A DNA stretch of 55,291 nt. Source: Acidobacteriota bacterium (GTDB lineage: Bacteria; Acidobacteriota; Terriglobia; Acidiferrales; UBA7541). The stretch covers positions 1-55,291 of the forward strand of contig QHYK01000065.1 in NCBI GenBank assembly GCA_003224085.1, given 5' to 3'. The number at the start of each line of letters is the position of its first letter. Position 1 is the first letter of the stretch. Below the pieces are notes generated by a model that was given only the letters and a program-made list of their open reading frames with translations, searched no databases and was not told the DNA's origin. Of the stretch, positions 22,779 to 43,544 are shown piece by piece. The position numbers were made by a program, and so were the translations under genes.

Positions 22779-24323
22779 CTAGTTGGATTCGGGAGCAAGC
22801 CAGATTTTGCGGCCGAGGACATGAAGAATGTCGAGCCGCAGGACACGAAAAGCGGGTTTGGAATCGTTGCGGGATACCAGGAAAAGAGTCAGAGCGTAAA
22901 CGAAACTGCCGGCCAGGGCGGCGGCGAGCAGGTCGGGCCAAGTATCAATCTTGAAAGAGTGTCGAAAGACGACGAATGTGGCGGCTATGGGTAGAACCAA
23001 CAAACACGGCTTGAGGCAGCCCTGAAGCAAATAGCGGCGCAGGGGAAGATCCAAGATCTTGCACAAGTGGCGGGGAACAAGAAACAAACTGGTGGTGAGC
23101 AAGGTCGCGGCCATGACGACGGCGAGACCGAGCAGACCTGCCGCATGCAGGGCTGCAGCGCCGAGCACGGTGATGGAAAGTCCTTCGCCAAGCCGGAACC
23201 AGAACAGCTGCCGATGGCGTTCGATGCCGAAAAGTATGGATTGAACGCAGCACTGTGTAGCCGCAACGCCAACACCGAATATCAGCAAGACGAGCAGGGG
23301 ATAGGCGATCGTGTATTGAGGGCCCACCCAAAGGGTGAACAGCTCGCGGCCAAAGACGAAAAGAAAAGCGGCGAGGGGAGCGAGCAGGAGAAACGCGCTC
23401 TGAACGCTCATCTGGATGAGTTCGCGAAGCTTGGCGAAGTCGTTGCGGGCTTCGAGCTGGCTGGAGAGCGGATTCATGATCTCGGTCATGGTGCCGATGC
23501 CTTCGGTGGGGAAAGACAGAATCTTCATAGGCAGGGCGAAAATGGTCACGACTACGGGCGAGAGAATGCGCGCGATGAGGATGGGGTAGATGTAGGTACG
23601 CATCCTCTCGGCGACGCCCACGCCTACGCTGACGGAACCGTAGCGAAGCATGTTGCCCAATACCGCCATGCGAATCCATTTGGGATGCAGAGTGAAGCCC
23701 GGGTGCGCGCGGAGAGCGAGAGGCACCTGGACAAAGTAGGCGAGCAACTGAGAAAGGATCGTGGTGGCGCCGACAGCAAACAAGCCGCCGCCCATGCGGA
23801 GCACATAAATGATGGCCACGACGCGAAGCGCGAGACACGCGACATTGGTGAGATAAACCTGATCGAAACGGCCGGCGGCTTCGAGGGAGCTGGCGAAGAC
23901 GATGAGCGGCAAGGTGAGGCCCTGAATGAGGCCGGCGAGCAAGAAGAGAGACTTGAAGTCGCGGAGGACGTGACCGTGAATGGAAAAGAAGCGAGAAGCG
24001 GGATCAACCGAGATGTGTGTGGCGAGAATGACCAGAAAGCAAGCGCCGAGGTAATAGTAGAAAGCCGTTGAAACAACCTCGTTGACGCTTTTCTGATCCT
24101 TGAGCTCCTTATTCCTGGAAACATAGCGAAGGATGGCGGATCGGACGCCGGCATCCAAAATGCCGTAATAACCGACGAGGTTGGTGGTCAGGATCCAGAC
24201 GCCAAAGGCCTCGTCGCCCAAGCGATGCAAGACGTAGGGAGTGAGAAAGATTCCGACAGAGGCGTTAGCGACAACGGAGACCCAACTGGTCGTAACGGCT
24301 CGTAAGATGAGGGAGATGCGCAT
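22779..24323 (-). CDS. wzx: Wzx-type polysaccharide flippase (MOP superfamily)
   Basis: 514 residues with about fourteen hydrophobic segments spread over the whole length. The start (LRAVTTSWVSVVANASVGIFLTPYVLHRLGDEAFGVWILTTNLVGYYGILDAGVRSAILRYVSR) is the hallmark N-terminus of MOP-family oligosaccharide flippases. The role is to flip the undecaprenyl-diphosphate-linked repeat unit to the periplasmic face of the inner membrane. GAGG precedes the ATG. It is the last gene of the exopolysaccharide locus in transcription order, 88 bases after the carbamoyltransferase. Assignment to the class is firm; the exact glycan is unknown. Confidence 0.88.
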   Translation of the reverse strand: MRISLILRAVTTSWVSVVANASVGIFLTPYVLHRLGDEAFGVWILTTNLVGYYGILDAGVRSAILRYVSRNKELKDQKSVNEVVSTAFYYYLGACFLVILATHISVDPASRFFSIHGHVLRDFKSLFLLAGLIQGLTLPLIVFASSLEAAGRFDQVYLTNVACLALRVVAIIYVLRMGGGLFAVGATTILSQLLAYFVQVPLALRAHPGFTLHPKWIRMAVLGNMLRYGSVSVGVGVAERMRTYIYPILIARILSPVVVTIFALPMKILSFPTEGIGTMTEIMNPLSSQLEARNDFAKLRELIQMSVQSAFLLLAPLAAFLFVFGRELFTLWVGPQYTIAYPLLVLLIFGVGVAATQCCVQSILFGIERHRQLFWFRLGEGLSITVLGAAALHAAGLLGLAVVMAATLLTTSLFLVPRHLCKILDLPLRRYLLQGCLKPCLLVLPIAATFVVFRHSFKIDTWPDLLAAALAGSFVYALTLFLVSRNDSKPAFRVLRLDILHVLGRKIWLAPESN

Positions 24324-24411: not shown

Positions 24412-26247
24412 TCATTTCCCGCGACCTGCTTCGTCAGCGCCGATGGCAACGCCGACCTCATGGAACGCGCGCACCTGGGTTGCGTACTTCGTGGAGCGGC
24501 GTGCGACCAAGATGTCTTCAAGAAACAGGAATTCGATGCCGGTGTTCATGAAAGTCTCGATGGCCTCCCGCGGAGTGTTGACAATGGGCTGGCCCTTGAC
24601 GTTGAAACTGGTGTTCAGCACCATTTCGCGCCCGGTAGTTCTTCCAACGGCCTCTAGAAGCGCGTGGAACTCGCGATTGTCAGCGGCAGAAACGGTTTGC
24701 ACGCGCGCGGAGCCGTCGACGTGCGTAATGGCCGGCAAGTGCCTGCGGACCTCGTTGCGAACGTTTACGGTTGTAATCATGTAGGGAAATTCGGCGCACG
24801 GAGGAACGTCAAACCACTTGTGGACTTCCCGCAAGGTGACCGCAGGGGCGAAAGGGCGAAAAGCTTCACGCATCTTGACCATGGCGTTGATGCGATCGCG
24901 CATTTCGGGATGTCCCGGATCGGCCAGGATGCTGCGATGGCCGAGGGCGCGGGGCCCGAATTCCATGCGGCCGCGGTACCAGCCGATTACCCGGCCATCG
25001 GCAATCAGGCCTGCGGCGTGTGCGCAAGTCTCGTTCAGGTTTTCAAAGGAGTGAACTGCAATGCGGCTGCCGAATTCTTTGAGTGCTGCTTCGATTTGAG
25101 AAAGAGAATAAGCCGGGCCGTAGAACGGGACTGGAATGCGAACGTTTTGAATACCGCCATTCTCTGAGACACGCAAGGCGGCGGCTCCGAGCGCCGAGCC
25201 GTCATCGCCCGCGGCCGGTTGCACGAAGATTTCGTCGAACAGCCCGGACTGAAGCAGTTTTCCATTGGCGGTGCAATTGAGAGCCACGCCACCGGCAAGA
25301 GCCAGCCGGCGCAACCCGGTGCGCTCTCCGAAGTGTTTGCACATGTGCAGCATGACGCGGTCGAGACATTCCTGGAGGGCGGCGGCGACATCGCGGTGGA
25401 CGTCTGTGATTTCATCATTAGGACTTCGCGGCTTGATCAAATGTTCTGTCAGGTATTTGCGCGTGGCGACGTAGTTTTCACGTTCGTCGCGAGTGCGATT
25501 GAGGCGAAGGAGAGGGATGCGAATGGTTCCGTCTTCGTGCAGGTCGACGGCCTGCTCGAACAATGACCGAAAGCGCGCAGGGTTGCCGTAAGGCGCAAGC
25601 CCCATGATTTTGTATTCGTCGGCATTGAAGTCGAACCCGAGATGCAAGGTCACAACGGAATAGAGAATGCCGATGGAATCCCGGGCAGGGGTTTCCTGGA
25701 GCTTCTCCAGTTTGCCGTTGCGTGCGTGGTAAGCGGTGGCGCTCTGAACTTCCCCCATGCCATCGACGACGAGGACCAAGCATTCGTCCCAGCCGGAACA
25801 GAAGTAGGCGCTTGCGGCATGAGCTAAGTGATGGCCGACGTGGCGAACGCGATCGGCAGGATAGCTGTCCAGGTAGCGAGCGACTTGGACGAGAACGGCT
25901 TCGCGCGAGTAGACATCTTTATAGAGAGCGGCAGTCACGGGATCAAAACTGTGAAGCGTGCGGTGCGGCGCGAAATCGAAAGAATGAGCGATTTCGTCGA
26001 GGTTGCTGAGTGCGATGCCGGCTTCCGCAAGACAGTAAGAGATAGCGCCGATAGGAAAGTCGCCCGTATGCTTTTTCCGGCTGAAGCGCTCTTCAGCGGC
26101 GGCAGCGATAAACTCACCATCAACAAATAAAGCTGCAGCGGAGTCATGTCCCTGGGAAATGCGGTATTCACGGTCTTCGAGATTGGGCCAATGGGCCTTC
26201 TTGAAAGGGATAGAGCCTTCAAAACCGCTAATTCCGAGAATTTTCAT
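24412..26247 (-). CDS. O-carbamoyltransferase, NodU/CmcH family
   Basis: 611 residues. The N-terminal Kae1-like domain holds SQGHDSAAALFVDGEFIAAA (H34) and the metal-binding stretch GHHLAHAASAYFCSGWDE (His ~139-143). The C-terminal YrdC-like domain holds RGRMEFGPRALGHRSILADP (~410-430) and KMREAFRPFAPAV. The family makes carbamoyl-adenylate from carbamoyl phosphate and ATP and transfers the carbamoyl group to a hydroxyl of a sugar or antibiotic. Here the acceptor is probably a sugar of the exopolysaccharide repeat or the group built by the adjacent adenylation/carrier genes. I used ATG 26247, which starts the canonical MKILGIS; the frame is open further upstream but overlaps the acyltransferase gene. 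Forty bases separate it from that gene. Confidence 0.9.
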   Translation of the reverse strand: MKILGISGFEGSIPFKKAHWPNLEDREYRISQGHDSAAALFVDGEFIAAAAEERFSRKKHTGDFPIGAISYCLAEAGIALSNLDEIAHSFDFAPHRTLHSFDPVTAALYKDVYSREAVLVQVARYLDSYPADRVRHVGHHLAHAASAYFCSGWDECLVLVVDGMGEVQSATAYHARNGKLEKLQETPARDSIGILYSVVTLHLGFDFNADEYKIMGLAPYGNPARFRSLFEQAVDLHEDGTIRIPLLRLNRTRDERENYVATRKYLTEHLIKPRSPNDEITDVHRDVAAALQECLDRVMLHMCKHFGERTGLRRLALAGGVALNCTANGKLLQSGLFDEIFVQPAAGDDGSALGAAALRVSENGGIQNVRIPVPFYGPAYSLSQIEAALKEFGSRIAVHSFENLNETCAHAAGLIADGRVIGWYRGRMEFGPRALGHRSILADPGHPEMRDRINAMVKMREAFRPFAPAVTLREVHKWFDVPPCAEFPYMITTVNVRNEVRRHLPAITHVDGSARVQTVSAADNREFHALLEAVGRTTGREMVLNTSFNVKGQPIVNTPREAIETFMNTGIEFLFLEDILVARRSTKYATQVRAFHEVGVAIGADEAGRGK

Positions 26248-26287
26248 GCAAGCAATTCCGTGGGCAATTGGTTGTGATTCGTCCGGG

Positions 26288-27514
26288 TTAGCCGCCTTGC
26301 AAGCGCATCCACCATTCGCCTTCGAGCCGGGTGAGAAACGCGTCGCCGCGCTGGATGGCTTCGCGGAGGTCCGCCCGTTTGGAATGCACGAGCATCCATG
26401 GGCCGTTGAAGTTGAACAGGCAGCGTTCCTCGGAAAATTCTGTGACGAATTCGGGATCCAGGCGCCCGGAAACCGCGGAAGATCCCGAACGCCAAGCATA
26501 ATAGAAGAGCTGACGTAGAACACGACGGATGGAGTTCTTGGTGGCCACAAGCTGCAGCACCTGGCTTGTGCCATTCGGCTTTAGGTAATACATGTACCAA
26601 CCGGCAATCTGCCCTCTATCATTGCGAACTAAGGCCTTGCGCAGGCAACCGTGGCTTTTTTTCGCGTTGGCCTGCTCCAGAAGCCAGCACAAAGAGCCTT
26701 CGTCGTAATGGGGACAGAGCGACTTTGCTGGGGCGAACTTTGGCAACTGCTGAAGCAACGTTTCCCAGCTGAAATCTTCCTCGGGGGAGTGTTCCGTTTG
26801 ATGGAACGGACTTCGGCGCTTGTGCGCGGCGACAAAGTCGGCGCCGGCGGACATTGGGCGAAGAGCGAATTCGATGAGAGGAGGAAGACCCCATTCCTTT
26901 CCGCGCTCGACCAGATAGCGGGCAGGGCGCAAGAGACGCATCCAATGAACGCTGTAGGGAAAGGCGGTAAAGCCTCCCAAACCCTCCCAAATCTTGCGGC
27001 TTGCTTCATTCGCGCCATCCGTGAAGGACAAATCCTGCGGCCCGGCAAAGAAAGCGCTCTGGAGCTCCACTGCGGCCAAACGATTTCGGACCGCAGGATC
27101 CACCATAAACTGGGTGGAAACGGCTACACGAATCGGGCGGCCGTTCATTCGCATTCGCCGCGGTATCACGCCATAGAAGCCACCAATTTTTCCGGCGTCC
27201 TCCCGATAAACCAGGGAAGAGAGGTCTTCGTCGCACCAAGGATTTTCAAAGAAGAGCTCACGGAGGTGGAGCTCGAGTTCCCGAAGGGAAAGGGAATTCA
27301 CGGGAAACACTCTTTTGTGCAGCTCGGCGACTTGCGGAATATCTTCGGGCATAAACGGCCGGATTCTTTTTGTGAGGGCACACGCGCTGTGCGCAGCGTC
27401 TGTTCTGGAAAGCGTTGTGACATTCTTGCGGGCGCCGCAAACGGGCGGAACGAGTCCGCTCGGCGCCAAAGGCTCTGTGGCCCCGCTGCTAGTTCGGCTG
27501 AGAAGCTTTCGCAA
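26288..27514 (-). CDS. GNAT-type N-acyltransferase
   Basis: Up to 408 residues. After a poorly conserved N-terminus the GNAT-like fold begins at IRPFMPEDIPQVAELHKRVF (~51) and continues through 'GGFYGVIPRRMRMNGRPIRVAVSTQFMVDPAVRNRLAAVELQSAFFAG', the strand-helix region that binds the pantetheine arm of the acyl donor. A second lobe follows with ALVRNDRGQIAGWYMYYLKPNGTSQVLQLVA. Lying directly downstream of the carrier-protein gene, it may use the carrier-bound acyl group as donor and an amino sugar as acceptor; this is inference. The start is uncertain: TTG 27514, GTG 27421 and ATG 27352 are all in frame and none has a good ribosome binding site. Confidence 0.75.
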   Translation of the reverse strand: MRKLLSRTSSGATEPLAPSGLVPPVCGARKNVTTLSRTDAAHSACALTKRIRPFMPEDIPQVAELHKRVFPVNSLSLRELELHLRELFFENPWCDEDLSSLVYREDAGKIGGFYGVIPRRMRMNGRPIRVAVSTQFMVDPAVRNRLAAVELQSAFFAGPQDLSFTDGANEASRKIWEGLGGFTAFPYSVHWMRLLRPARYLVERGKEWGLPPLIEFALRPMSAGADFVAAHKRRSPFHQTEHSPEEDFSWETLLQQLPKFAPAKSLCPHYDEGSLCWLLEQANAKKSHGCLRKALVRNDRGQIAGWYMYYLKPNGTSQVLQLVATKNSIRRVLRQLFYYAWRSGSSAVSGRLDPEFVTEFSEERCLFNFNGPWMLVHSKRADLREAIQRGDAFLTRLEGEWWMRLQGG

Positions 27515-27562
27515 GGTTGGTTAGTGTCCCCGTATTGGCCCTGTCAGGCGATTACAGCTGGC

Positions 27563-27826
27563 TTAGTGGCCATTTCGCAAAGCGAGATGGCATAGATTCT
27601 TCACGACGGTGAACTCTTCCGGGTCAGCGTCGATCAGATCGAGCTTCTTGTGAGTGCAGTTCTCGATGAACAGGATAAGGTCGACAAAGGCGAAGGAGTC
27701 CAAGAGCCCGCTCTCGAGCAAGTTCGTGTTCCCGGAGATCTCCGCGTGGCTCGAGCCGTTGAGGCCGTTCTGCTTGACCCAACCGACGACCAAGTCGATG
27801 AGTTCTTTTTCGGCGGCCGGTTTCAC
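27563..27826 (-). CDS. acyl/peptidyl carrier protein
   Basis: 87 residues, with the four-helix carrier-protein pattern and the phosphopantetheine attachment serine S44 in NLLESGLLDSFAFVDLILFIE. The motif LLDSF-x-x-V-D-L resembles D-alanyl or aminoacyl carrier proteins (LLDSLGTVELL) more than fatty-acid ACP (GADSLDTVEL). The GTG at 27826 overlaps the TGA of the adenylation gene in a four-base GTGA, so translation is probably coupled and the two proteins made in fixed ratio. Its likely job is to receive the aminoacyl group from that enzyme as a thioester. Confidence 0.88.
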   Translation of the reverse strand: MKPAAEKELIDLVVGWVKQNGLNGSSHAEISGNTNLLESGLLDSFAFVDLILFIENCTHKKLDLIDADPEEFTVVKNLCHLALRNGH

Positions 27827-29427
27827 GCGGCACCCTGGAGCAAGCACGCAAGTTTCCCGCGATCAATTTTCTGATTCGGGTTCAGAGGAAGCTCGTCGAG
27901 GAGATAAATCTTCTTGGGGACCATGTATTCGGGCAGAACATCGCTGCAACTTGTGAGGACGCGGTCGCGGTCGAGCGTCTTGACACCGGAGACGAAGGCC
28001 ACAACCCCCTCAGCGCTGCCGTTGTTGACCGGCCAGGGAAGCGAAACCACTTGGTCGGTGCCGCAGGCGCGCCGCAGCACGGCCTCAATCTCTTGCAACT
28101 CCACACGGTAGCCGCGAATCTTGACTTGCTGATCCATGCGCGCCAGGTAGCAGAGGTTGCCGGCTGCATCCTGTTTTACAAGGTCGCCGGTGCGATACCA
28201 CAAGAGTTCTCCCGAACCGGGAAGATGCACAAACTGCTGCTGGGTTTTTGCGGGTTCGTTCCAATAACCTGTGGCGACTTGCGAGCCGGAGAGACAGAGC
28301 TCGCCAGCTTCGCCGGCGCGGACACTTTTTCCATGAGAATCCACGATTCGGCAATGCTGTCCCTGGAAAACCTGACCGATGGGAACGATGCCGTTCAGGG
28401 ATTCTTGCGGTGATCGTTCCGAATCCCAGCGATAGTGGGCGATGGCGATGGTGGCTTCGGTTGGTCCGTAGAGGTTTTCGACGATGGAGTTTGGAGCGGC
28501 CTCCTGCCAGGATTGCGCATAAGCTGCCGGCAGGGGTTCGCCGCAAAAGAGGCTGCAGCGCAGCGAAGGGAAGCAGTTCGGGAAGAGGAGACGCATTTTG
28601 GAGAGCAGCCCGGCAACGGAGGGGACAGAGAACCACATGGTGAGCTGATGATCGCGGATGAATTTCGCGGGCGCCATGACGGATTTCTCGGGCACACAGT
28701 ACAAAGCTGCCCCACGTTCCCAGCACACGAACTTGTCGTGAGCGCTCAGGTCAAAGGTAAGATCAAATTGTTGAGAGAAGCGGTCGTGCTCATCGACTTC
28801 GTAGCGCTCGCAGATGTAGTCAACGTACGCACGCACATTTCCCTGGGTGATTAATACGCCCTTAGGCACGCCCGTGCTCCCTGACGTAAACAGAAGATAA
28901 GCCGGAGAGTCCGGGCCGGACGCTTGCAGGAGAGAAAAATCTTCTCCGCTCGTTAATTGCCCGGGAAATACAAACCGATGGAGAGGATTGTCCGACGCCA
29001 GGAATTCCAAAGCGGTTATTTCCGGAAGAATGACGGTCAGAGACCGATTCGCCGCCTGCAGCAAGCCAGACAACTGAGGAAGGCACTCTTTGCCGACGAT
29101 GAGGGTCGTGCAACCGGAAAGAGCCAGCATGCGAGAGGTGCGTTCCAGAGGGAACTTCGGATTTAGCGGGACATATCCCTTGCCCACTGTAAGACAGCCA
29201 AGGATACCCGCGTACGCGGTTTGGCTTCGATGCGCCCAAACGGCCGCGAGGGGATAAGCCCGCTGCTCATTCTGGTGAATCGCCAAAGCGATTTGGCTGA
29301 CGCTGCGACAGAGCTGCGAATAGCTCAGCGACGCGTTGTCAACAACCAGCGCAGTTCGATCAGGGAAAAGCTCAACGGATTCCAGGAATGCGCTTGCAAG
29401 GCTTCGAAATGAATTGTTCTTGGTCAT
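27823..29427 (-). CDS. amino-acid-type adenylation enzyme (AMP-forming ligase) loading the carrier protein
   Basis: 534 residues, one complete ANL-superfamily domain. Core motifs are A3 YLLFTSGSTGVPKG (177-190), A5 NLYGPTEAT (318-326), A7 YRTGDL (411-416), A8 QQVKIRGYRVEL (433-444) and the A10 lysine K520 in NPNQKIDRGKL. A4 contains LTFDLSAHD with D226, the residue that pairs with the substrate amino group in NRPS and DltA enzymes, so an amino acid substrate is more likely than a fatty acid. There is no fused carrier or condensation domain. The layout recalls DltA/DltC and the exosortase-A-associated AMP-ligase/ACP pair. It overlaps the carrier gene by four bases. Confidence 0.88.
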   Translation of the reverse strand: MTKNNSFRSLASAFLESVELFPDRTALVVDNASLSYSQLCRSVSQIALAIHQNEQRAYPLAAVWAHRSQTAYAGILGCLTVGKGYVPLNPKFPLERTSRMLALSGCTTLIVGKECLPQLSGLLQAANRSLTVILPEITALEFLASDNPLHRFVFPGQLTSGEDFSLLQASGPDSPAYLLFTSGSTGVPKGVLITQGNVRAYVDYICERYEVDEHDRFSQQFDLTFDLSAHDKFVCWERGAALYCVPEKSVMAPAKFIRDHQLTMWFSVPSVAGLLSKMRLLFPNCFPSLRCSLFCGEPLPAAYAQSWQEAAPNSIVENLYGPTEATIAIAHYRWDSERSPQESLNGIVPIGQVFQGQHCRIVDSHGKSVRAGEAGELCLSGSQVATGYWNEPAKTQQQFVHLPGSGELLWYRTGDLVKQDAAGNLCYLARMDQQVKIRGYRVELQEIEAVLRRACGTDQVVSLPWPVNNGSAEGVVAFVSGVKTLDRDRVLTSCSDVLPEYMVPKKIYLLDELPLNPNQKIDRGKLACLLQGAA

Positions 29428-29498
29428 TGGTGCTGGTAGTTTTTGTCGCGCAGCGCGGCGGTCACAGATATTCGTTTCCCTGTGTGTGGGATGTCGGC

Positions 29499-30605
29499 TC
29501 AGGCAGGAAGTCCGACCTTTTCCAGGGCTCGATTAAATGCGGCAGTGGCGTGTTGCAGCTCTTCTTCGCTTGCTGGAATGTCCAAAATGAACCTTCGGTA
29601 TCCCAATGAGATGTAGCGGGATAATTCGTTGGAGACCGCCTCATAGCCGCCGACCAGGTAAGGACAAAAGGTCTTGTACTGTTCAAAGGGCCTCAGCCAA
29701 TAGGTACTCCGCATAGCGCGAGTTTGGTTTGCGGTATCCGAGAGTTGCTTGTGCCACAAGGAATCAGAGATTTTCATCGCCAGCTGGTGAGTAAGTTCGC
29801 CTTTGCGATCTTCCGGGAATCGTTGCTCGGCAACCTCCCAGGCTTCATCTTCGGTTTCTCGGGCGATGATTCCCACGCGAATCCCCGACTTGAAGCCGTT
29901 GTTTGCGGGTTCGGCCTCGCACTCCTTTGCCGGGCGGGGATATTTCACGGCAGTCGCGCCAAGTTTTTTCGCCGCGTCCAATCCGGCTTCCGATGATCCG
30001 GAGACAAATATTTCCGGAAGCAGTTCTGGAGGAAGGGAAGGGATCATGCGCAGTTGGTCGATCCTGTAGAACTCCCCATGGAAAATGACGGGTGCCGGAC
30101 TAGACAGGAGATGCTTGATAATTGTGGTGTATTCAATCAGACGGGAATACCGCTTGTCGTGCGGAGTTGGGTCGTTCAACGCCACGAGGTCATTCTTGAA
30201 ACCGCCCGCAACCATGTTCAGGTAGAGCCGCCGGTGATAGAGGAAGCCAAAAGAAACCACCATCTTAGCGACGGAGTAAGGGTGCATGTAAACGGGCTGA
30301 ATCGCCACGAGAGGGCTTAGGCTCTTTGTGTTCTCTACGATAATCTGAGACACAAGCCAAGGGTCCACGAGTGAGTTGTCCGTGTAAACCAGGATCCCCT
30401 TGCAACCGCAGCGCTCGCTCCAGCGAGCTACGCTCCTGACTTGGTGGGCATACGACCCCTTATCAAATCCAAAGGATTGGGGACAAGTGGAGAAAAGTTC
30501 GACGTGTTTCGCCGCACTGCCGAGAGCAGCGACTCTCGCGCCAGACACGAGTCTTCCGGTCTCAAGCGGAAGCTCCGAATTCAAGCCTAACTTGTTTGCC
30601 AACAC
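29499..30605 (-). CDS. luciferase-like flavin-dependent monooxygenase (LLM class)
   Basis: 368 residues with the bacterial luciferase TIM-barrel pattern: VELFSTCPQS (first strand), YAHQVRSVARWSERCGCKGILVYTDNSLVDPWLVSQIIVENT, LVAIQPVYMHPYSVAKMVVSF, RLYLNMVAGGFKNDL and PEIFVSGSSEAGLDAAKKLGATAV. The closest described groups are alkanesulfonate-type and natural-product (MupA/Atu3671-like) monooxygenases, which use reduced FMN and oxygen. Lying just upstream of the adenylation/carrier genes, it may oxidise the carrier-bound amino acid or the sugar it decorates. The GTG at 30605 has a perfect ribosome binding site (AAGGAGGT, seven bases upstream), the best in the locus, suggesting independent high translation. 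Confidence 0.85.
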   Translation of the reverse strand: MLANKLGLNSELPLETGRLVSGARVAALGSAAKHVELFSTCPQSFGFDKGSYAHQVRSVARWSERCGCKGILVYTDNSLVDPWLVSQIIVENTKSLSPLVAIQPVYMHPYSVAKMVVSFGFLYHRRLYLNMVAGGFKNDLVALNDPTPHDKRYSRLIEYTTIIKHLLSSPAPVIFHGEFYRIDQLRMIPSLPPELLPEIFVSGSSEAGLDAAKKLGATAVKYPRPAKECEAEPANNGFKSGIRVGIIARETEDEAWEVAEQRFPEDRKGELTHQLAMKISDSLWHKQLSDTANQTRAMRSTYWLRPFEQYKTFCPYLVGGYEAVSNELSRYISLGYRRFILDIPASEEELQHATAAFNRALEKVGLPA

Positions 30606-30731: not shown

Positions 30732-32426
30732 TCACTGGACTGCAGGGAGTCTCCTTGAATGAGTCGGAGGGCGGATCGCTTGTGGATAAAGACACCTTTT
30801 TATCGAGTCCACGGCATCAAATACGGACTGCAACTCGAGCTCAAGCTCCCATAGATTTCCATAGAACGCCTTTCTCAACAGATGGCTCGGAAGCTTGCCA
30901 ACCTGCGGGAGGGATTCGCCACCAAAAGTAGAGACGTAATGCTTGTAAGCAGAAGCCGCGAGGTGTTTCGCTTCAGCAGACATATTTTCGGGTTTTCCGA
31001 AAGGGAATGCGAAAAAGTTTACCGGCCTTTTAAGATGCGCTTCCAGCTCGTTCTTTGATCCAATAATCTCCGATCGCAGAGTTTCCAGGTCGGTGGAGCC
31101 GCAGTCAAAGTGGGTGCGGGTATGACTGCCGAACTCGGTTCCGCAAGAGCTCCAATATTGGATTTGCTCCCATGTCAAAGGAAAGAAGCCTCTCACACCC
31201 GCTGCAAGGTCATGGTCAAACTCCCGGCGAGCTTCCACCGGCTCCGTGGTAATGAACAGTGTCGATGGAATTCTTACTTCATTGGCCACGGCGCGAAGAT
31301 TGAGGAAATTATCCGCGTAACCATCGTCGAACGTCAGAACTACCGTTGGAACATTTATCTGACCCAGGCGCTGAAGTCGGGCACTCTCGGCAAGGTTCAC
31401 AATGCGGTAGTGCTTTTGCAAAAAGAGAACTTGCCGCCAAAAAACCTCCGTAGAGACCCCCATTCTGTGAGGACGATCTGATACCAGGTGGTGCGCGAGA
31501 ATGAGCACAGGGTAGCGCCCGACTATGCGCCGATACCAATTCCGGCAAAGGATTCCCGGCGAGCAAAGCAAGAGAGAATCGAGGCAGAGCTTCCAGGTGG
31601 AACGGCTGCGTTTTCCGAAACGCGCGGTTTTGAAAGTATCGGGGAGCACGCCCGTTGGTCTTGACAAGGAGGGGGCGAGAATCCGGTTTGCCCATTCCGA
31701 TACGACCGTGGATGCGCTGCCTCGGCCGCCAGAGAGCAAAGCCGCAGCCGTCTGGAGCAGCAGATCGTCCGTGATGAGGTCAGCTTTTAGTGAAAAGCCT
31801 AACGTCCCATCGAACGGTTGCCAGGGGAGGACCTGCGTGAAGATTGTGAACGAAGCTCCGGCGCCCGCCACCAGCTGTTCAATGTGGATTAAAACGTCGT
31901 TGCTGGAACCGTTCGCGTTGTTATTTCCCTTGTAAGTACGACCGCGAATGCAACCGTTTGATGTATGGACTGGCAGTTCCGGAACAGATGAAAACTCTCC
32001 CAGAAGAATGACGAGACTGACGTCTGAAAGGCAAATAGAAGTTACGGCGCGCGCCTCTTCACCCTGGGCGGCGATGGCAAGTGGCCATCCGGCCTTCGAA
32101 CATTCCTGACGCAGCCTTTCCATTGTCAATCGCTTCGGATTGTTGAGAGGGGAAGGGGACCCGTGCACCAGCCAGAGCAACCAATCGACAACCTTATCCG
32201 CCATGAAGCGAATTAGGGACTGCGCCTTCGCGGCCCACGAAGGCGTGGGATGAGCGATTCGCGTTTTTCCTGCCGCGATCATCTGTTGGACCCAAGGCAG
32301 GGAGCCAATGGACCGCTGGACGATGCCGCAAATTTCAATGCCCGGCACTTCGCGAAGAATGCGGTTTGCAAAGTTCCACGCTCGGGAGGGGCGAGCGTTA
32401 GAGATGATCAAAATACGCTTGTTCAT
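30732..32426 (-). CDS. formyltransferase-like domain fused to NodB-type polysaccharide deacetylase
   Basis: 564 residues in two parts. Residues ~1-235 resemble the Rossmann formyltransferase fold (KRILIISNARPSRAWNFANRIL..., SLVILLGEF, then 'HIEQLVAGAGASFTIFTQVLPWQPFDGTLGFSLKADL'), but the Asn-His-Asp catalytic set is not evident: TSNGCIRGRTYKG sits where N-x-H-P-S is expected. Residues ~305-565 are a carbohydrate esterase 4 domain with VVLTFDDGYADN (D367, D368), the metal motif FGSHTRTH (H435, H439) and FFAFPFGKPE. The second part probably removes an N-acyl group from the polymer or lipid-linked intermediate. No signal peptide is visible, so action on a cytoplasmic intermediate is possible. 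Confidence 0.78.
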   Translation of the reverse strand: MNKRILIISNARPSRAWNFANRILREVPGIEICGIVQRSIGSLPWVQQMIAAGKTRIAHPTPSWAAKAQSLIRFMADKVVDWLLWLVHGSPSPLNNPKRLTMERLRQECSKAGWPLAIAAQGEEARAVTSICLSDVSLVILLGEFSSVPELPVHTSNGCIRGRTYKGNNNANGSSNDVLIHIEQLVAGAGASFTIFTQVLPWQPFDGTLGFSLKADLITDDLLLQTAAALLSGGRGSASTVVSEWANRILAPSLSRPTGVLPDTFKTARFGKRSRSTWKLCLDSLLLCSPGILCRNWYRRIVGRYPVLILAHHLVSDRPHRMGVSTEVFWRQVLFLQKHYRIVNLAESARLQRLGQINVPTVVLTFDDGYADNFLNLRAVANEVRIPSTLFITTEPVEARREFDHDLAAGVRGFFPLTWEQIQYWSSCGTEFGSHTRTHFDCGSTDLETLRSEIIGSKNELEAHLKRPVNFFAFPFGKPENMSAEAKHLAASAYKHYVSTFGGESLPQVGKLPSHLLRKAFYGNLWELELELQSVFDAVDSIKRCLYPQAIRPPTHSRRLPAVQ

Positions 32427-32494: not shown

Positions 32495-33883
32495 CTAGTA
32501 AGCATTCTTGTTGCGATATTTTGGGAAAAGCGTCAGAAAAATGATCCTTATGTCGAAAGCAAAACTCCAGTTTTGGAGGTAGAACAAGTCGTGTTCCACG
32601 CGCCTTCGGATGGACGTGTCGCCGCGCCATCCATTCACCTGAGCCCAGCCCGTGATTCCCACTTTCAGAAGATGGCGCGTGTTGTATCTCGCCACTTCGT
32701 TGAGGAATTTTGCGACAAAACGCGGGCGCTCAGGCCGAGGCCCAACGACGCTCATGTCACCTTTCAAGACGTTAAAGAACTGCGGTAACTCGTCCAAACT
32801 GGTCCTGCGCAGGAAGGTTCCGAGTGGCGTGCGGCGCGGATCGCCGGATGTAGTCCAGCGTGTGTCACTCTCGGAAGGTTCTACGACTCTCATGGTCCGA
32901 AACTTATACATTCGAAATAGTTTTCCGTTAAGCCCAACACGGTCCTGAACGAAGAGGATTGGGCCAGGCGACGTAAGACGAATGAGAACCGCAATCATGG
33001 CCATCAATGGGGCCGCAAGCAGGAGGGCCAGAGTCGAGAAAACAAGGTCGAAGGCGCGCTTCAGCAAAGAATAGCGAATGGATTCTGTCGGAGTAGCGGT
33101 TAAATCGAGTATCTGTAAACGTCCGAACTGGAACAGGCGTTCTCGGATTAACATGTGGTCGCCGAAGTCAAGGACCGCACGCACTGGCAGGCAAAAGCGC
33201 TCCGTTGTCTTCATGATTTCCGGGATATCGGAGAATCTGTTGGGAGGAAGAGCGATGATGATTTCGTCGGCGGTGGCGCCCCCGCTCATCTTTTCCACGA
33301 GCTGCTGAAAGGTATATACAGGGGCGTTGTCGACCGCCACTGCCTGACCCGGAAGGTTCACGTAGCCGATCACGCGGCAAAAGGAGAGCGGCCCGCGGAT
33401 CAATCTGTGGGTTGCGCGGCGGGCGAAGCGATCTGCGCCGATAACGAAAACACGACTCGGGTTCCGGAGGCCAGAATGGTTATAAACAAGAAATCGAAAC
33501 AAAGCGCGCATCGCGAGGCATACACCAAGCAAAGTCATGCCGCTGAGCGCAAGGAAGGCCCGGGAAAGGTCTCGGTAAAGGTGAAAGAAGAAGAGCAGCC
33601 CGAGGAGCATGGCATAGGTAGTGGCGCAGGCTTGAAAGGCGGCCTTGATTCCCGTGCGTTCGCGAAAGAGTTCCTGGACGCTCGTGACCCGATAGTATTC
33701 GCTAACGATGGCCCAGACAATGGTAGTGAAGAGCAAGAGGTTGAAATAACTATACTGGTCAATTCCGGTGTCCGGGTGCCTAAATAAACGACGAATGTAT
33801 CTGGCAGCGCCAAACGAAAAGAACGGCAGCGCATAAGTCGCGATTCTCAGATAAAAGTGGTAGTAATTTACGAAACGGCGCAT
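32495..33883 (-). CDS. undecaprenyl-phosphate sugar-1-phosphate transferase (priming enzyme)
   Basis: 462 residues. An N-terminal region has four to five membrane segments (up to ~130), followed by a CoA-binding-like Rossmann part (RVFVIGADRFARRATHRLI). The C-terminal bacterial sugar transferase domain runs from ~270: KRAFDLVFSTLALLLAAPLM, SPGPILFVQDRVGLNGKLFRMYKFRTM, RRTSLDELPQFFNVLKGDMSVVGPRPE. This is the WbaP/WcaJ architecture. The enzyme transfers a hexose-1-phosphate, commonly glucose or galactose, to undecaprenyl phosphate and so starts each repeat unit at the inner membrane. The sugar cannot be read from sequence. Gaps of 134 bases upstream and 68 downstream contain no gene. Confidence 0.92.
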   Translation of the reverse strand: MRRFVNYYHFYLRIATYALPFFSFGAARYIRRLFRHPDTGIDQYSYFNLLLFTTIVWAIVSEYYRVTSVQELFRERTGIKAAFQACATTYAMLLGLLFFFHLYRDLSRAFLALSGMTLLGVCLAMRALFRFLVYNHSGLRNPSRVFVIGADRFARRATHRLIRGPLSFCRVIGYVNLPGQAVAVDNAPVYTFQQLVEKMSGGATADEIIIALPPNRFSDIPEIMKTTERFCLPVRAVLDFGDHMLIRERLFQFGRLQILDLTATPTESIRYSLLKRAFDLVFSTLALLLAAPLMAMIAVLIRLTSPGPILFVQDRVGLNGKLFRMYKFRTMRVVEPSESDTRWTTSGDPRRTPLGTFLRRTSLDELPQFFNVLKGDMSVVGPRPERPRFVAKFLNEVARYNTRHLLKVGITGWAQVNGWRGDTSIRRRVEHDLFYLQNWSFAFDIRIIFLTLFPKYRNKNAY

Positions 33884-34017: not shown

Positions 34018-35334
34018 TCAGTTACCTTGAAATGCGCTTTGGCCGCCAGCGTCAGTTTTAACCGCATGATGCGGCGCCGCGGGGTGGTGCGGATTTCTGC
34101 TGCCTTCCTTGTCTACGATTGACTCCGTCTGAGTCCGGCGAGGCGTGGAACTCCAGGTAAGTTTCTTTCCTCCGCCGAGATATCGGAGCAACCCCAGAAG
34201 CATGGCGAGATTCATGGAACAGAAGTACAGGGGCGCGGAGAAGAGTCGAACTCGTATCCCATTCTTCTTGCACAAAAACCCGAGGCCGGCACAAAGATAA
34301 AATGCGCTTTGTGCAGCAAGTAATGTCGAGAATCCTCCCTGACCAGCCAGTAGCGCGTTGCAGCAAAAACCAATGATGAGTAGCAGCGGTGCGAACCAGC
34401 GCAAGACCCGGTGAGAGAAAAAGCAGAAAGCCAGCATTCCTTTTAAAGGGTTAAGGCACTGCAGGTTGGCGAACAGTGTCTGGTAGTTGCCAGCGCCAAT
34501 CCTGACTCTGCGCGCAAACTGCGCCGAGAGCGTGGGAGCAATTTCCTCGACGGCAACCGCTTCGGGATCATAAATGACGCGATAGCCTTTCAAGCGAATT
34601 TCTAGCGGAATTTGGAAATCTTCGATAAGGGTGTGCTTTTGCGGCTGGAAGAGAGAGCGGCGGACCGCCAATACGCTGCCGTTGCCTCCAAGCGTGCAGT
34701 CCAAGCGGTTTTCCAAGAGCTTGAGGGCAGATTCATAACGCCAATAGAGAGCTTCGGCGGCCGGGTCCGACCCGGGAGAGGTCACGCGGTTTTCCTCTCC
34801 GCTGACGGCGCCTACGCGCGGGTCCGCAAAGTGGCGAACCAGGTTGCGAATGCAATTGGGTTCGAGCTTTGTGTTCGCGTCCGTAATCACTAAGATTTCA
34901 GCGGAAGTTTGTTGGGCGAGGGTTCTCAGAACGGCCAGTTTGCCCAGGCGATCTTTGAAGTGCGTTACGCGGAGCCGGTCAAAAGTCATTGGGCTCAACA
35001 GGTCCGCAGTCGCATCCGAAGGTGCGTCAAGCCCGATCAAGAATTCGAGACGCTCGCTTGGATACTCTGTCTCGAAAGTGTTTTTCACCTTCGGCTGAAT
35101 GACGGCCTCTTCGTTATGGGCCGACATCAGAACCGTAACGTGTGGAAGGTACTGGGTTGAAGCGGTGCAACGGCGCCCTCCGCGACGGAAAAGGAACAGC
35201 AGGTCCGACTTTGCCTGAGATAGCATTGAAAGAAGGAATAGAACGAGCGGGTAACCAATATAGTTGTAGGCGACCAGGCTCATGCAAATCCAAAAGACCA
35301 TTTCGGAGTTCGACATAGATACATTCATGGTCAT
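34018..35334 (-). CDS. family 2 glycosyltransferase, membrane-bound
   Basis: 438 residues. An N-terminal membrane segment is followed by the GT2 catalytic domain (HVTVLMSAHNEEAVIQPKVKNTF, then EILVITDANTKLEPN as the D-x-D region, GNGSVLAVRR, and IEDFQIPLEIRLKGYRVIYDP with the catalytic ED and an RRVRIG-type segment in place of QxxRW). Three or four C-terminal membrane helices (~300-400) follow. Such enzymes act on the cytoplasmic face and resemble processive synthases and poly-N-acetylglucosamine transferases. The start is ATG 35334, which overlaps the TGA of the preceding ligase gene in ATGA, so the two are translationally coupled. The tail is low-complexity and His/Pro-rich. Confidence 0.88.
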   Translation of the reverse strand: MTMNVSMSNSEMVFWICMSLVAYNYIGYPLVLFLLSMLSQAKSDLLFLFRRGGRRCTASTQYLPHVTVLMSAHNEEAVIQPKVKNTFETEYPSERLEFLIGLDAPSDATADLLSPMTFDRLRVTHFKDRLGKLAVLRTLAQQTSAEILVITDANTKLEPNCIRNLVRHFADPRVGAVSGEENRVTSPGSDPAAEALYWRYESALKLLENRLDCTLGGNGSVLAVRRSLFQPQKHTLIEDFQIPLEIRLKGYRVIYDPEAVAVEEIAPTLSAQFARRVRIGAGNYQTLFANLQCLNPLKGMLAFCFFSHRVLRWFAPLLLIIGFCCNALLAGQGGFSTLLAAQSAFYLCAGLGFLCKKNGIRVRLFSAPLYFCSMNLAMLLGLLRYLGGGKKLTWSSTPRRTQTESIVDKEGSRNPHHPAAPHHAVKTDAGGQSAFQGN

Positions 35335-36710
35335 GGGCCCCAATTCGTTGCTGAAGGTTGAAGATCATCAGTCACGGGAAGAGCTAAAGAGAAGGAAGGC
35401 TCCTGGATCGAGTGAGCGATCCGCTGAACGCCAACGGCCATGGCGACGGGATAGTAAAGAAAACATCCATAACCAAGATGGGCAAAGAATGCTCCAAAAA
35501 CGAAGGACAGCAGACTAACCGACGTCGCGCGCGCCATCAGTTTGAGTTCCCAAGTTTCCGGGCTTCCGGCAAGTGTCCTGCTCAACGCTTGCATGCGACG
35601 GATTGCGGTCCACAGAAGGGAGACAAAAAGCACTAACGCTGGAATTCCTGCTTCAGAGGAGATCTCGACAAAGGTATTGTGAGTCCCCAGCCAATCCTCC
35701 GGCCGACCAAGCTCAGTGCCGCTGGCGACCGCAAAGTTTCCAAGACCGAGGCCAACAACAGGATTCTGGAAAGTGTAATGAATCGCGCGCCTCAGCAGGC
35801 CTAGACGCTCTTCTTGCGACATCCTAGCTGCCGCAGCGACCTCACTCTGGGAACCTTGCGCCCCGGACCACACGGTCGACATCCTCTCCCAGAAGACCGG
35901 TGGCGCCAGGCTAATAGCCACCAGCAAGACAGCGACAATGCCAATTCCTATAGTTTTCGCACGAGAGTTTCCCCGGAGGACGATAAGCCAGGTCAAGGCC
36001 ACAGAGAAAAGCACGTTCAGCAATCCTCCGCGCGATGCCGTTAGCACCAACATCCACATCAGAAATAAAAGAGAAGAGATGAGTACGCTTGTTCTGAGAA
36101 AGCCCGGCTGGGCGATATAAATCGCCGCGATATAGGGAATAGTTACCGCGGCAGACAAGCCAAGGAAATTCCAGCCGAGGATGTCTTGACTTACTCCCAG
36201 CAGACGTTGGCCTATCCAGATGAGGTGGGAAGATTGCACGACGGAATAGGCGCAAACGAGAAGTTCGCTCAGAATGATGGCCCACAGAATCTTACGGAGG
36301 CGACCGAGCGTTACCAGAGTCTGCGTAAGCAGGAAGAATATAGTCAGAGTCTTAAGCCAAGTTTCTGTCAGGACTTGAAAGGCGCCGCCCCTCCAATAAG
36401 CGAATGGCACTCCTGCGACAAAACAAGCCGTCAGAAAGAGAACGATGCGCAACTCCCTTGTCCAGACCAAAGGGGCATTCCCTAAAAGGTAGGACCCGAG
36501 ATAGCTCAAGCCGGCGCAAAGACCCAGAATGAACGTGACGTGAAATTGACCTATCGACGGAAGAATATCTTCTGGCCGCGCATAGATCGCGAAGGTGAAG
36601 AGAAGTACGAAGAAAAAGCTAACAGGCGCGCTTCGGTTGAGGGGTTGCGATGGAGCAGGCCTCGACTCTGTGATTGCCTCGTCGATGACGTATAACGTTG
36701 CTTCCCTCAA
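35331..36710 (-). CDS. O-antigen ligase/polymerase family protein (Wzy-like)
   Basis: 459 residues with ten to twelve membrane segments. The start of the membrane part (FAIYARPEDILPSIGQFHVTFILGLCAGLSYL) resembles the exosortase-A-associated 'O-glycosylation ligase' group. The Wzy_C region contains LTASRGGLLNVLFSVALTW and the large periplasmic loop with GLGLGNFAVASG..WLGTHNTFVEISSEAGIPALVLF, matching the H-N-x-(F/Y)-(V/L) motif of WaaL/Wzy enzymes. It most likely polymerises repeat units at the periplasmic face; ligation to another acceptor cannot be excluded. The TTG at 36710 overlaps the TGA of the upstream glycosyltransferase (TTGA), and its own stop overlaps the next gene (ATGA). Confidence 0.85.
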   Translation of the reverse strand: MREATLYVIDEAITESRPAPSQPLNRSAPVSFFFVLLFTFAIYARPEDILPSIGQFHVTFILGLCAGLSYLGSYLLGNAPLVWTRELRIVLFLTACFVAGVPFAYWRGGAFQVLTETWLKTLTIFFLLTQTLVTLGRLRKILWAIILSELLVCAYSVVQSSHLIWIGQRLLGVSQDILGWNFLGLSAAVTIPYIAAIYIAQPGFLRTSVLISSLLFLMWMLVLTASRGGLLNVLFSVALTWLIVLRGNSRAKTIGIGIVAVLLVAISLAPPVFWERMSTVWSGAQGSQSEVAAAARMSQEERLGLLRRAIHYTFQNPVVGLGLGNFAVASGTELGRPEDWLGTHNTFVEISSEAGIPALVLFVSLLWTAIRRMQALSRTLAGSPETWELKLMARATSVSLLSFVFGAFFAHLGYGCFLYYPVAMAVGVQRIAHSIQEPSFSLALPVTDDLQPSATNWGP

Positions 36711-37966
36711 GGTATCACCAGGGCAGGTTGACTAACGGATGTGTCCACGAATGACTGGTTGCCGTTCGACACCACCCGGTCGAGAACCTCTTCGACCTTG
36801 CGCAAGACTGCTTCCCAGCTGTGATTGACGGCCACCTCTTTGCGGGCGGCATTTCCAATTGCGTCCCGGAGCGAGGCGTTTTCGAGAAGTTGAACGACGG
36901 TCTGGGCAAAATCCTGGGGATGGCGTGCAATGCGAATCTGCTTGTCGTCCTGAAATGGCAGCCCCTCCGCGCCAATTGGAGTGGAGACCACGGCCTTGGC
37001 CATGGCCATCGCCTCTGGAATCTTGATGCGTGTGCCGCCACCAATCCGCAAGGGGACAACGACTACCTCCGCTTGCGAAAGATACGGCCGAACATCGGGT
37101 ACCCATCCCGTGAGTTCCATGGAAGGAGTCTTGGCCGCGATCGCTTGAAGGCGCGAAGAGGGATTTCGCCCTACGACAACGAAACTTGCGTTTGGCGCTG
37201 CGTTCCGGACGAGCGGGTAAATATTCTCTAGGAACCAAACAACTCCGTCCTCATTCGGGTCCCAGTCCATAGAGCCGACAAAAACCAGCCTTCCCGGCCG
37301 TGTGCGATTCGCGGACGGGTGAAAGAAATCGGTGTCTACGCCAGTGGGGAGAGTGGAGACATGATCGATTCGAAACTCCTGATGAATCATTTGTCGGTCT
37401 TCTTCAGACACCGTTAGCACCTGATCGAACAAGCGGCAAACCCTTGCTTCGAGCGGCCGTGTTCTTCTCCATTCCGAGCCGAACGCGATCCTGCGAAGAG
37501 GATGTTTTTCCACCTGCCATTTCCGTTTTCTTAACTGGAATTCAACGTTGTGCTCAAAAACGATTTTGGGTTTAAAGGTGCATTCGAGCAAAGGGACGGC
37601 GGTGTGCAAGAAATCGCAGAAGAGAAGGTCGAACTGCTCATTCGCCAACAGGTGCTCAACAGCGGTTCGAAAATCGGGCAGGCTGCACTTTGCGAGAAAG
37701 TAGGGCAAGGAGCGGAATTGGTTGGCCACGAGCTCCTTGTAGAATCTGGGCGAGTACTTCTTGGTTTCCTGCCAGAATACTGGGGTGTAGCTTTGGAAAA
37801 CGCTCTGCATTTCGCAAATGGAGGCAGCGTCGGAAACTGGCTCGGCAAAAGAAACAGCATGAATGGACGCGCGTTTTGCAAGGCGCGAAAAGATATTCCA
37901 GGAACGCACTTTTCCGCCGGTGTCGGCGGGGAACAGAGGCTGCCGTAGTGTTAGCAATATCTTCAT
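36707..37966 (-). CDS. family 4 glycosyltransferase
   Basis: 419 residues, GT-B fold. The N-terminal domain (MKILLTLRQPLFPADTGGKVRSWNIFSRLAKR) has the glycine-rich loop that contacts the donor. The C-terminal domain has RLVFVGSMDWDPNEDGVVWFLENIYPLV, MELTGWVPDVRPYLSQAEVVVVPLRIGGGTRIKIPEAMAMAKAVVSTPIGAEGL with the E-x7-E-like donor site. It resembles the exosortase-associated TIGR03087-type transferases. I chose ATG 37966 because the family starts there and it lies seven bases after the stop of the amidotransferase gene; the upstream open frame reads into that gene. Confidence 0.88.
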   Translation of the reverse strand: MKILLTLRQPLFPADTGGKVRSWNIFSRLAKRASIHAVSFAEPVSDAASICEMQSVFQSYTPVFWQETKKYSPRFYKELVANQFRSLPYFLAKCSLPDFRTAVEHLLANEQFDLLFCDFLHTAVPLLECTFKPKIVFEHNVEFQLRKRKWQVEKHPLRRIAFGSEWRRTRPLEARVCRLFDQVLTVSEEDRQMIHQEFRIDHVSTLPTGVDTDFFHPSANRTRPGRLVFVGSMDWDPNEDGVVWFLENIYPLVRNAAPNASFVVVGRNPSSRLQAIAAKTPSMELTGWVPDVRPYLSQAEVVVVPLRIGGGTRIKIPEAMAMAKAVVSTPIGAEGLPFQDDKQIRIARHPQDFAQTVVQLLENASLRDAIGNAARKEVAVNHSWEAVLRKVEEVLDRVVSNGNQSFVDTSVSQPALVIP

Positions 37967-37973
37967 GCGCTGA

Positions 37974-39974: not shown

Positions 39975-40021
39975 AGATTTGCTTTTGAGGCTTTTTTTAC
40001 GTTCGGCTGAACCGTTTCTTC

Positions 40022-42442: not shown

Positions 42443-43544
42443 TGGCGAAATCCCGGGCTAGTTCTTTTGCGCGGTGCAGACTCTCTTCCAACAGCCAGTC
42501 GGCAGTTCTCGCGATGTTGTCTTCGGCACCGTGCAACTTTGTTTGTTCCTTCACCCGCGCATAGTGTTCTGTGACAAAGACAAGCTTCTGACACAGATCA
42601 TCTGCATCCTTTTCGGTGTAGGTCGTAACCTGAGGCGGCCGATTGTGATTTTCACTGGTTATGACGGGGACGCCGAGGGCCAGCGATTCCAATACTGACG
42701 CGGCAACACCATCGCAGGCGGGAGTGCGGATGTACGCAAAACACCGTGAAAGCAATGTCGAGAAGGTGTCGTGGTCCACGTTTCCCAGCAACAGCAAGCC
42801 CTCTCGTTCACCGCCTGGCCAGGAAGCCACGAATTCTTGTGCCGACGGTAATTCCTTGGAAGGAAACCCCAGCCAAATGAATCCCGCGCGTTCGCACTTT
42901 TGGCGGAATTGCTTCATTGCCATTCGCAGAATTGGGAGTTGGTACTCTGGTCGAAAGGAAACGTAACAAAAAAAGACCGGATGACGGCTATTCAGGAAAG
43001 TCTCAATCGGTGGTTCCAGCGGCACATGGTGGAATTCCAAGTTTTGTATGGAAAATGCCGGAATCGCGGCAACCCGATGGGAAACAATGCCATAACTTTC
43101 AATCGCCCTCTTGATCTGGAGATCGTTGCAGGCAATTTTTCCGCAGAGGCGAAAGAGCAGCCTGTACGCCTCTCGTACTAGCTGGCCCCTGGGTCTAGGA
43201 AAATACTTTTGTTGCAGTCCGCCTTGCCAGCTCAGAGTTATGGGGCGACCCCTGAATCGGCCGGCCAAAGCAGCCAAGAGCGCCAGGACATAACCTGTCC
43301 TGGACTGGCCATTGACATGCACTTGGAACTGGTAGCCTTTTGCGGCAAAGCGAAGCAGCTTATAGAGGTAGTCAAAACCGTTTTGAACGTCAATGTACTC
43401 GGCCAACTTCTTCTTCCGGTTCTCATTGATGTTCAGGACCTGGCACACATGCCCGCGCCGGCGAATTTCTTCGACCAGTAATTTCGTTTGGATCGCCCAG
43501 CCGCAGGCCGGTGGAGGGTAATTCCCGATTTGCAGGATTTTCAC
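42432..43544 (-). CDS. family 4 glycosyltransferase
   Basis: 370 residues, GT-B fold. The N-terminus MKILQIGNYPPPACGWAIQTKLLVEEIRRRGH is the donor-side glycine loop. The C-terminal domain has FIWLGFPSKELPSAQEFVASWPGGEREGLLLLGNVDHDTFSTLLSRCFAYIRTPACDGVAASVLESLALGVPVITSENHNRP. The E of SVLES sits in the E-x7-E motif region, though the second Glu is replaced. It probably adds one sugar of the lipid-linked repeat at the cytoplasmic side. The start is GTG 43544 without a clear ribosome binding site. Confidence 0.85.
   Translation of the reverse strand: MKILQIGNYPPPACGWAIQTKLLVEEIRRRGHVCQVLNINENRKKKLAEYIDVQNGFDYLYKLLRFAAKGYQFQVHVNGQSRTGYVLALLAALAGRFRGRPITLSWQGGLQQKYFPRPRGQLVREAYRLLFRLCGKIACNDLQIKRAIESYGIVSHRVAAIPAFSIQNLEFHHVPLEPPIETFLNSRHPVFFCYVSFRPEYQLPILRMAMKQFRQKCERAGFIWLGFPSKELPSAQEFVASWPGGEREGLLLLGNVDHDTFSTLLSRCFAYIRTPACDGVAASVLESLALGVPVITSENHNRPPQVTTYTEKDADDLCQKLVFVTEHYARVKEQTKLHGAEDNIARTADWLLEESLHRAKELARDFASAD

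Follow-up and report, generated by a model that had tools for sequence, protein, structure and literature searches.

What does a luciferase-like flavin monooxygenase (LLM) do beside a stand-alone amino-acid adenylation enzyme and a carrier protein, among genes for exopolysaccharide synthesis? The question is raised by a 55,291-nt stretch of DNA from a soil acidobacterium (contig QHYK01000065.1; hereafter the window), in which an initial annotation had named five gene families inside an exopolysaccharide locus and read them as a pathway that activates, loads and possibly oxidises an amino acid and moves it to an amino sugar. All five families are indeed present as co-directional genes on the minus strand (24412-30605), flanked by a deacetylase gene upstream and a Wzx-type flippase gene downstream. 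From gene content, family assignments, linkage, predicted folds and residue comparisons, all computed directly, we find that the gene set is real and that its core is conserved in many distant bacterial groups, and we tentatively propose that it produces an oxidised aminoacyl unit and passes it on. The five genes are:

29499..30605, minus strand: LLM flavin monooxygenase of SsuD fold (PF00296; predicted model, with MsuD and SsuD as nearest folds)
27823..29427, minus strand: stand-alone amino-acid adenylation enzyme (TIGR01733 over cut-off; pocket DLHSLCLIAK)
27563..27826, minus strand, open reading frame (ORF) opening at 27847: carrier protein (GLLDS motif; alignment of relatives; sub-threshold DltC and acyl carrier protein models)
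26288..27514, minus strand: two-lobed GNAT acyltransferase (PF13527, marginal; predicted N-myristoyltransferase-like architecture)
24412..26247, minus strand, ORF to 26574: NodU/TobZ-type O-carbamoyltransferase (PF02543 and PF16861)

The intergenic gaps measure 71 nt (LLM to adenylation enzyme), -4 nt (adenylation enzyme to carrier), 48 nt (carrier to acyltransferase), 40 nt (acyltransferase to carbamoyltransferase) and 88 nt (carbamoyltransferase to flippase). The GTGA overlap described earlier holds with a carrier start at GTG 27826, which aligns with a relative (L053), the longer ORF opening at 27847. The strong ribosome binding site claimed for the LLM is also there, with AGGAGGT 7 bases before its GTG start (30605). 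The carbamoyltransferase likely starts at ATG 26247 and not at 26574 of its longest ORF.

A conserved core with optional partners

We confirmed 248 LLM relatives in the named genome collection, and the linkage figures refer to the best 80 of these 248. The 80 loci are not independent: 66 are left, the window counted, after removing LLMs more than 90% identical, some lie on the same contigs as loci from other genome searches, and many stem from metagenome bins. Distances and counts depend on thresholds that we set ourselves. Genes called as the longest ORF were in part wrong where GC content was high, and the counts within 6 kb and of polysaccharide genes use stop-to-stop frames instead.

The earlier idea that the LLM is tied to carrier chemistry gains support: an adenylation gene lies within 6 kb of the LLM in 74 of the 80 loci, a carrier gene in 67 and both in 66. 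Both are present in 53 of the 58 loci with at least 5 kb of downstream sequence, and where 2 kb of downstream sequence is available (72 loci), the adenylation gene is on the same strand and starts at most 300 nt after the LLM in 66. The 80 loci represent 11 named phyla, with three loci unassigned; those with an adenylation gene represent 10. These counts thus define a core of LLM, adenylation enzyme and carrier, with the other genes being optional, and because this core is conserved in distant genomes, the gene set stands above chance. Within the same 6 kb, we found the carbamoyltransferase subfamily in 24 loci, a two-lobed acyltransferase in 22, a RimL-like acetyltransferase in 22, a formyltransferase in 14, and a methyltransferase and a flavin reductase in six each. 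Formyltransferase (10) and RimL-like acetyltransferase (15) genes share none of the 58 loci (hypergeometric P 0.037), a mutual exclusion that is suggestive only.

Distances between LLMs correlated with those between the adenylation enzymes (0.35), carbamoyltransferases (0.59), two-lobed acyltransferases (0.76), formyltransferases (0.73) and RimL-like acetyltransferases (0.73), and for each gene none of 2000 permutations was as high. Among 60 relatives, 11 (in addition to the own genome) carry a full-length LLM at E 1e-123 or better, with paralogs at E 1e-8 or worse, and an adenylation gene adjoins it in all 11, one being cut by a contig end. Querying 396 genomes (own counted) with the acyltransferase gave strong hits at nine loci in eight other genomes and weak hits in two more; LLM and adenylation genes are present at five of the nine loci, and a sixth is cut by a contig end. 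In a Nitrospirae bin (L071, 10987-12524), low-scoring adenylation fragments only were seen between LLM and carbamoyltransferase genes.

Amino-acid activation and the monooxygenase

The adenylation enzyme scores above the curated cut-off of TIGR01733 (331.5 vs 317.4 bits), in agreement with its earlier assignment as an amino-acid-type enzyme. Motifs A3, A5, A7 and A8 were found; the A10 pattern as used gave no match, yet KIDR is present at K520. The aspartate that had been pointed out, D226 in FDLS, and K520 correspond to the alpha-amino-acid anchors D235 and K517 of GrsA. Specificity for fatty acids, named at the outset as a finding that would speak against the pathway, is not indicated, and we rejected a fatty-acid ligase identity, since TIGR01733 is above its cut-off and fatty-acid ligase models are far under theirs. 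The DltA models (264.5 vs 559.85 and 273.5 vs 476 bits) and the exosortase-A ligase model TIGR03098 (213.7 vs 592.35 bits) also stayed below their cut-offs.

We set the pocket by the sequence of the GrsA structure (1amu), at the positions that we take to make up the pocket code, and checked it against DltA. The window code, DLHSLCLIAK, is found in 15 of 81 rows (which include some contigs fetched twice) and DLFSLCLIAK in 47, while D235, S278 and K517 are present in all 81 and C301 in 80. Either code equals that of DltA (3dhv, DLMSLCTVAK) at seven of ten positions, and this nearly invariant, DltA-like pocket suggests a small amino acid as substrate, namely D-alanine, alanine, glycine or serine. 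Family and pocket support activation and loading of an amino acid. The serine of the carrier GLLDS motif is residue 51 of the longer reading (27847 start); DltC models (20.9 vs 52.35 and 21.2 vs 68 bits) and acyl carrier protein models were sub-threshold. The carrier alignment has 15 rows, of which two are in the wrong frame (L054, L055), and the carrier counts come from a different profile. Two phosphopantetheinyl-transferase hits (PF01648) are present in the window genome. Four Gemmatimonadota loci (L115, L124, L125, L128) contain two carrier-like genes, the second following the RimL-like acetyltransferase.

The LLM matches PF00296 (96.4 bits vs cut-off 27.9, E 2.8e-27), and a fold search of its predicted model (pLDDT 89.1), with MsuD and SsuD as the closest solved structures, backs the luciferase-like fold. 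The SsuD equivalog model scored well below its cut-off (106.3 vs 518.2 bits). In the alignment with Escherichia coli SsuD, whose catalytic set and residue roles we take to be those of C54, W196, R226, H228, R297 and Y331, five residues (C54, W196, H228, R297 and Y331) are replaced in the window LLM and in nearly all of 57 aligned LLM rows; R226 is retained in 56 rows and N106 in all 57. Because five of six catalytic residues are lost, sulfonatase function is unlikely; action on sulfonates had been seen as a threat to the original pathway and is not indicated, and a sulfonate monooxygenase was dropped as a candidate. TIGR04020, a model of natural-product LLMs, was not among the 11 families listed for the window LLM at E 1e-3.

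A flavin reductase gene is present in six of the seven operons L046-L051 and L063, two of which share their contigs with members of the set of 80, and in the run of Nitrospira defluvii; PF01613 was confirmed for L051 and L116. Such in-operon reductases fit a two-component FMN monooxygenase. In the genome of the window, a single PF01613 hit was obtained, on another contig.

Seven plasmid-borne LLM relatives (39-48% identity) were found, two of them further Tritonibacter hits; in each of the five records opened, the LLM cluster also encodes an adenylation enzyme, a nonribosomal peptide synthetase (NRPS) or a carrier. Two Streptomyces plasmids (L144, 10017-17529; L173, 1973-9523) share a cluster in which the LLM lies beside an NRPS gene, together with MbtH, HPPD, tryptophan-7-halogenase-type halogenase and P450 genes. 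On the Tritonibacter and Rhizobium plasmids, carrier and ligase genes are found about 6 and 3 kb upstream of the LLM (47-48% identity), and the pocket of a cluster ligase reads DVFSLCTVAK; a Gemmobacter plasmid has an AMP-binding gene, a halogenase gene and a phosphopantetheinyl transferase gene. The NRPS pocket code read alongside it may mix domains, since that protein has two adenylation domains. A Priestia megaterium plasmid (L147, 5247-13935) encodes a more distant LLM (30% identity) among phosphoenolpyruvate-mutase-type, ATP-grasp and thiamine-pyrophosphate-enzyme genes, with no carrier among the listed genes of that cluster.

Acyltransferase, carbamoyltransferase and the exopolysaccharide run

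The AlphaFold2 model of the acyltransferase (pLDDT 84.8) shows the two GNAT-like lobes that the initial annotation had claimed. Its best structural matches are N-myristoyltransferases (Foldseek, NMT1, E 7.4e-13; VIA-align Z 20.6, root-mean-square deviation 5.1 over 301 aligned residues, 11% identity), so that by fold only the predicted architecture resembles that of these enzymes. PF13527 was reached marginally (25.2 vs 25 bits), and a PDB sequence search for N-myristoyltransferase gave a best E of 0.027. It is doubtful that the Bradyrhizobium protein encoded after the carrier is related to the two-lobed acyltransferase (hhalign probability 25, E 0.00078).

The carbamoyltransferase pointed out earlier is of the NodU/TobZ type, with PF02543 (201.1 vs 24 bits) and PF16861 (228.1 vs 27 bits) over their cut-offs and the motifs HHLAHAAS, DGMGE and GGVALN; the NodU model NF041651 is far below its own (152.2 vs 1000 bits). 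The 24 of 80 loci given above are those where a carbamoyltransferase inside the 6 kb reaches at least 450 bits, and clustering of our own ORF choices yields 27 loci at any score. The best-matching carbamoyltransferase in seven other genomes is the copy at the LLM locus, 67-74% identical to that of the window in six and 50% in L142; non-locus copies in the eight genomes searched are at most 42% identical. These copies were matched to LLM loci by hand. Carbamoyltransferase presence requires at least eight state changes on the LLM tree (57 rows), a quick tree with long outgroup branches.

The surrounding run extends on the minus strand from an export protein (54803) down to the flippase (22779), with the cassette near its end:

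30732..32426, minus strand: NodB-type polysaccharide deacetylase with N-terminal extension (PF01522; TFDDG 365, SHTRTH 434)
22779..24323, minus strand: Wzx-type flippase, downstream of the cassette (PF13440, PF01554)
32495..33883, minus strand: WcaJ-type undecaprenyl-phosphate sugar transferase, upstream (TIGR03023, 416.5 bits vs cut-off 410.75)
34018..54803, minus strand: remaining exopolysaccharide run (family scans)

This last part encodes glycosyltransferases, a Wzy-type polymerase, asparagine-synthase-like enzymes, a heparinase-like lyase, a NusG-like factor, chain-length/kinase-like proteins and export proteins; the frame at 52711-54066 had no Pfam match. The NusG/RfaH-like factor (PF02357, 48278-48835) is possibly an antiterminator of the run. 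Two copies of asparagine-synthase-like glutamine amidotransferases lie at 37974-39974 and 46209-48212, and similar genes occur in 10 of the 80 related loci.

The deacetylase motifs look intact. Its N-terminal region (about 300 residues) had no Pfam match at E 1, and a formyltransferase identity was discarded because a profile built on a single FMT sequence found no match there. In N. defluvii, a PglD-like acetyltransferase gene and a DegT-type aminotransferase gene are located in the same run as the cassette genes; together with the window deacetylase, they fit an amino-sugar acceptor.

A proposed pathway and its alternatives

A close parallel in logic is butirosin side-chain synthesis, which uses the carrier BtrI, the ligase BtrJ, BtrK, the monooxygenase BtrO and the transferase BtrH, with the BtrO step taking place on the carrier-bound chain. 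As proposed for the cassette, a monooxygenase-oxidised amino acid, a carrier and transfer to a sugar amine come together, a likeness taken from descriptions of BtrO. The cassette differs in that it sits in a polysaccharide locus, uses an NRPS-type adenylation enzyme and a two-lobed GNAT, and includes a carbamoyltransferase but no decarboxylase among its five genes. Nod-factor decoration combines the deacetylase NodB, NodA, which moves an acyl group off a carrier onto an amine, and carbamoylation by NodU. The cassette would likewise bring together a deacetylase, carrier-to-amine acyl transfer and NodU-type carbamoylation, but its carbamoyltransferase is under the NodU cut-off, the group would be aminoacyl and not fatty acyl, and no NodA family was listed in Pfam and NCBIfam scans of the window proteins. 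The exosortase-A ligase/carrier pair differs by the sub-threshold TIGR03098 score of the window enzyme.

The literature offers further parallels. BtrO is described as a flavin/F420-superfamily monooxygenase hydroxylating an amino acid side chain (PMC2922099), and the butirosin AHB moiety ends on a sugar amine (PMC11405602). It has also been suggested that a seryl-tRNA-synthetase-like enzyme, together with a carrier, might attach an amino acid to the amine of a sugar on the cell surface. The LLM of palmerolide module 9, which aligns with TIGR04020, is proposed to hydroxylate a carrier-bound chain in a cluster that also has a carbamoyltransferase (PMC8739492); for the window LLM, TIGR04020 was not listed at E 1e-3, and the cassette has no polyketide synthase (PKS). 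For the wfpD/wfpG genes of the Flavobacterium psychrophilum O-antigen, an O-antigen-specific carrier is predicted to act as donor for an acyltransferase with an amino sugar as its substrate; there, the acyl group is of the fatty-acid type, the transferase is PglD-type, and the excerpted description mentions neither an adenylation enzyme nor an LLM (PMC6519341).

According to our working model, the adenylation enzyme would activate a small alpha-amino acid, of the size of alanine, glycine or serine, and load it onto the carrier. The LLM would then oxidise the aminoacyl thioester while on the carrier, with FMNH2 supplied by a flavin reductase whose gene lies outside the window here and within the operon in some relatives. 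Hydroxylation is the most likely reaction; it is reported for BtrO and has been proposed for LLMs in PKS/NRPS pathways. Fold and linkage suggest that the two-lobed acyltransferase passes the unit to an amine, here probably that of an amino sugar of the exopolysaccharide, which the neighbouring NodB-type deacetylase could free, and that the carbamoyltransferase then places its group on a hydroxyl of either the unit or the sugar. We favour this scheme at somewhat less than even confidence, and several observations weigh against it. The full five-gene set is present in only four of the 80 loci, two of them from the closest relatives of the window; among the 58 loci with 5 kb downstream, the adenylation gene is absent in three and the carrier gene in four; and three of the nine acyltransferase-query loci lack an LLM as well as a close adenylation gene. 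Distances of the adenylation enzyme barely follow those of the formyltransferase (0.09; 672 of 2000 permutations as high) or the two-lobed acyltransferase (0.28; 85 of 2000). Polysaccharide genes, detected with conservative home-made profiles, were not found in 19 of the 45 loci of at least 15 kb; these 19 include eight of the nine Bradyrhizobium loci of the carbamoyltransferase clade, the ninth being shorter than 15 kb.

The five genes are accordingly not the strict unit that had been supposed, and co-occurrence across genomes, the check proposed at the time, stands for the three-gene core and is partly lacking for the full set. Amino-acid adenylation, a separate carrier and the LLM-carrier link survive from the original pathway; confinement to polysaccharide loci does not, and because of this an amino sugar can only be inferred as the acceptor. 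The same 19 loci speak for the reading that the product is small and diffusible, a modified amino acid or peptide, with polysaccharide loci as only one of several settings. Sets without polysaccharide genes include L141, which in a gene listing from our own ORF choice runs LLM, adenylation enzyme, carrier, ATP-grasp-like protein (under Pfam cut-offs) and carbamoyltransferase, and Bradyrhizobium L135, where one further protein accompanies the carbamoyltransferase, LLM, adenylation enzyme and carrier. The LLM relatives of 39-48% identity, whose clusters contain genes for an NRPS, a ligase or a carrier and in some cases halogenase, P450 or MbtH genes, point the same way. We nevertheless regard a diffusible product as rather unlikely, as the window genes form one run between the deacetylase and the Wzx flippase, polysaccharide genes are present in 26 of the 45 long loci, and no condensation domain was listed in family scans of 30 window ORFs.

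In a Dlt-like alternative, the amino acid would reach the polymer unoxidised, and the LLM would have a sugar, a sulfonate or a free amino acid as its substrate. This reading draws on the DltA-like pocket, the weak DltC match of the carrier and the sulfonate monooxygenases nearest to the LLM by fold. Like DltA and DltC, the cassette pairs a stand-alone adenylation enzyme of similar pocket with a separate carrier; both proteins are under the Dlt cut-offs, however, and an LLM, a GNAT and a carbamoyltransferase stand in place of DltB/DltD, neither of whose families was listed for the 30 window ORFs. With the LLM gene directly ahead of the adenylation gene at 66 of 72 loci and the SsuD catalytic residues lost as well, we consider such transfer improbable. 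It is more doubtful still that the LLM cuts the chain by Baeyer-Villiger oxidation or oxidative decarboxylation to leave a shorter or non-amino acyl group, since the formyl-, acetyl- and methyltransferase genes that occur as optional neighbours of the carrier make more sense with a surviving amine.

Among the matches listed in our open-access full-text literature searches, we recognised no paper as describing the gene set, which is not proof that there is none. The earlier notion of a new decoration route keeps a plausible pathway, whose logic has precedents. It would be a long shot to specify the product as an undescribed decoration of cell-surface glycans, an N- or C-hydroxylated small aminoacyl group that elsewhere bears a formyl or acetyl group on nitrogen or a methyl group, and often an O-carbamoyl group; were nitrogen the atom hydroxylated by the LLM, acylation would yield a hydroxamate and the exopolysaccharide would bind metal. 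The cassette may represent a widespread, unrecognised route to modify cell-surface amines or to make a small metabolite, and its nearly invariant pocket and lost sulfonatase site would let annotators separate this LLM clade from the alkanesulfonate monooxygenases.

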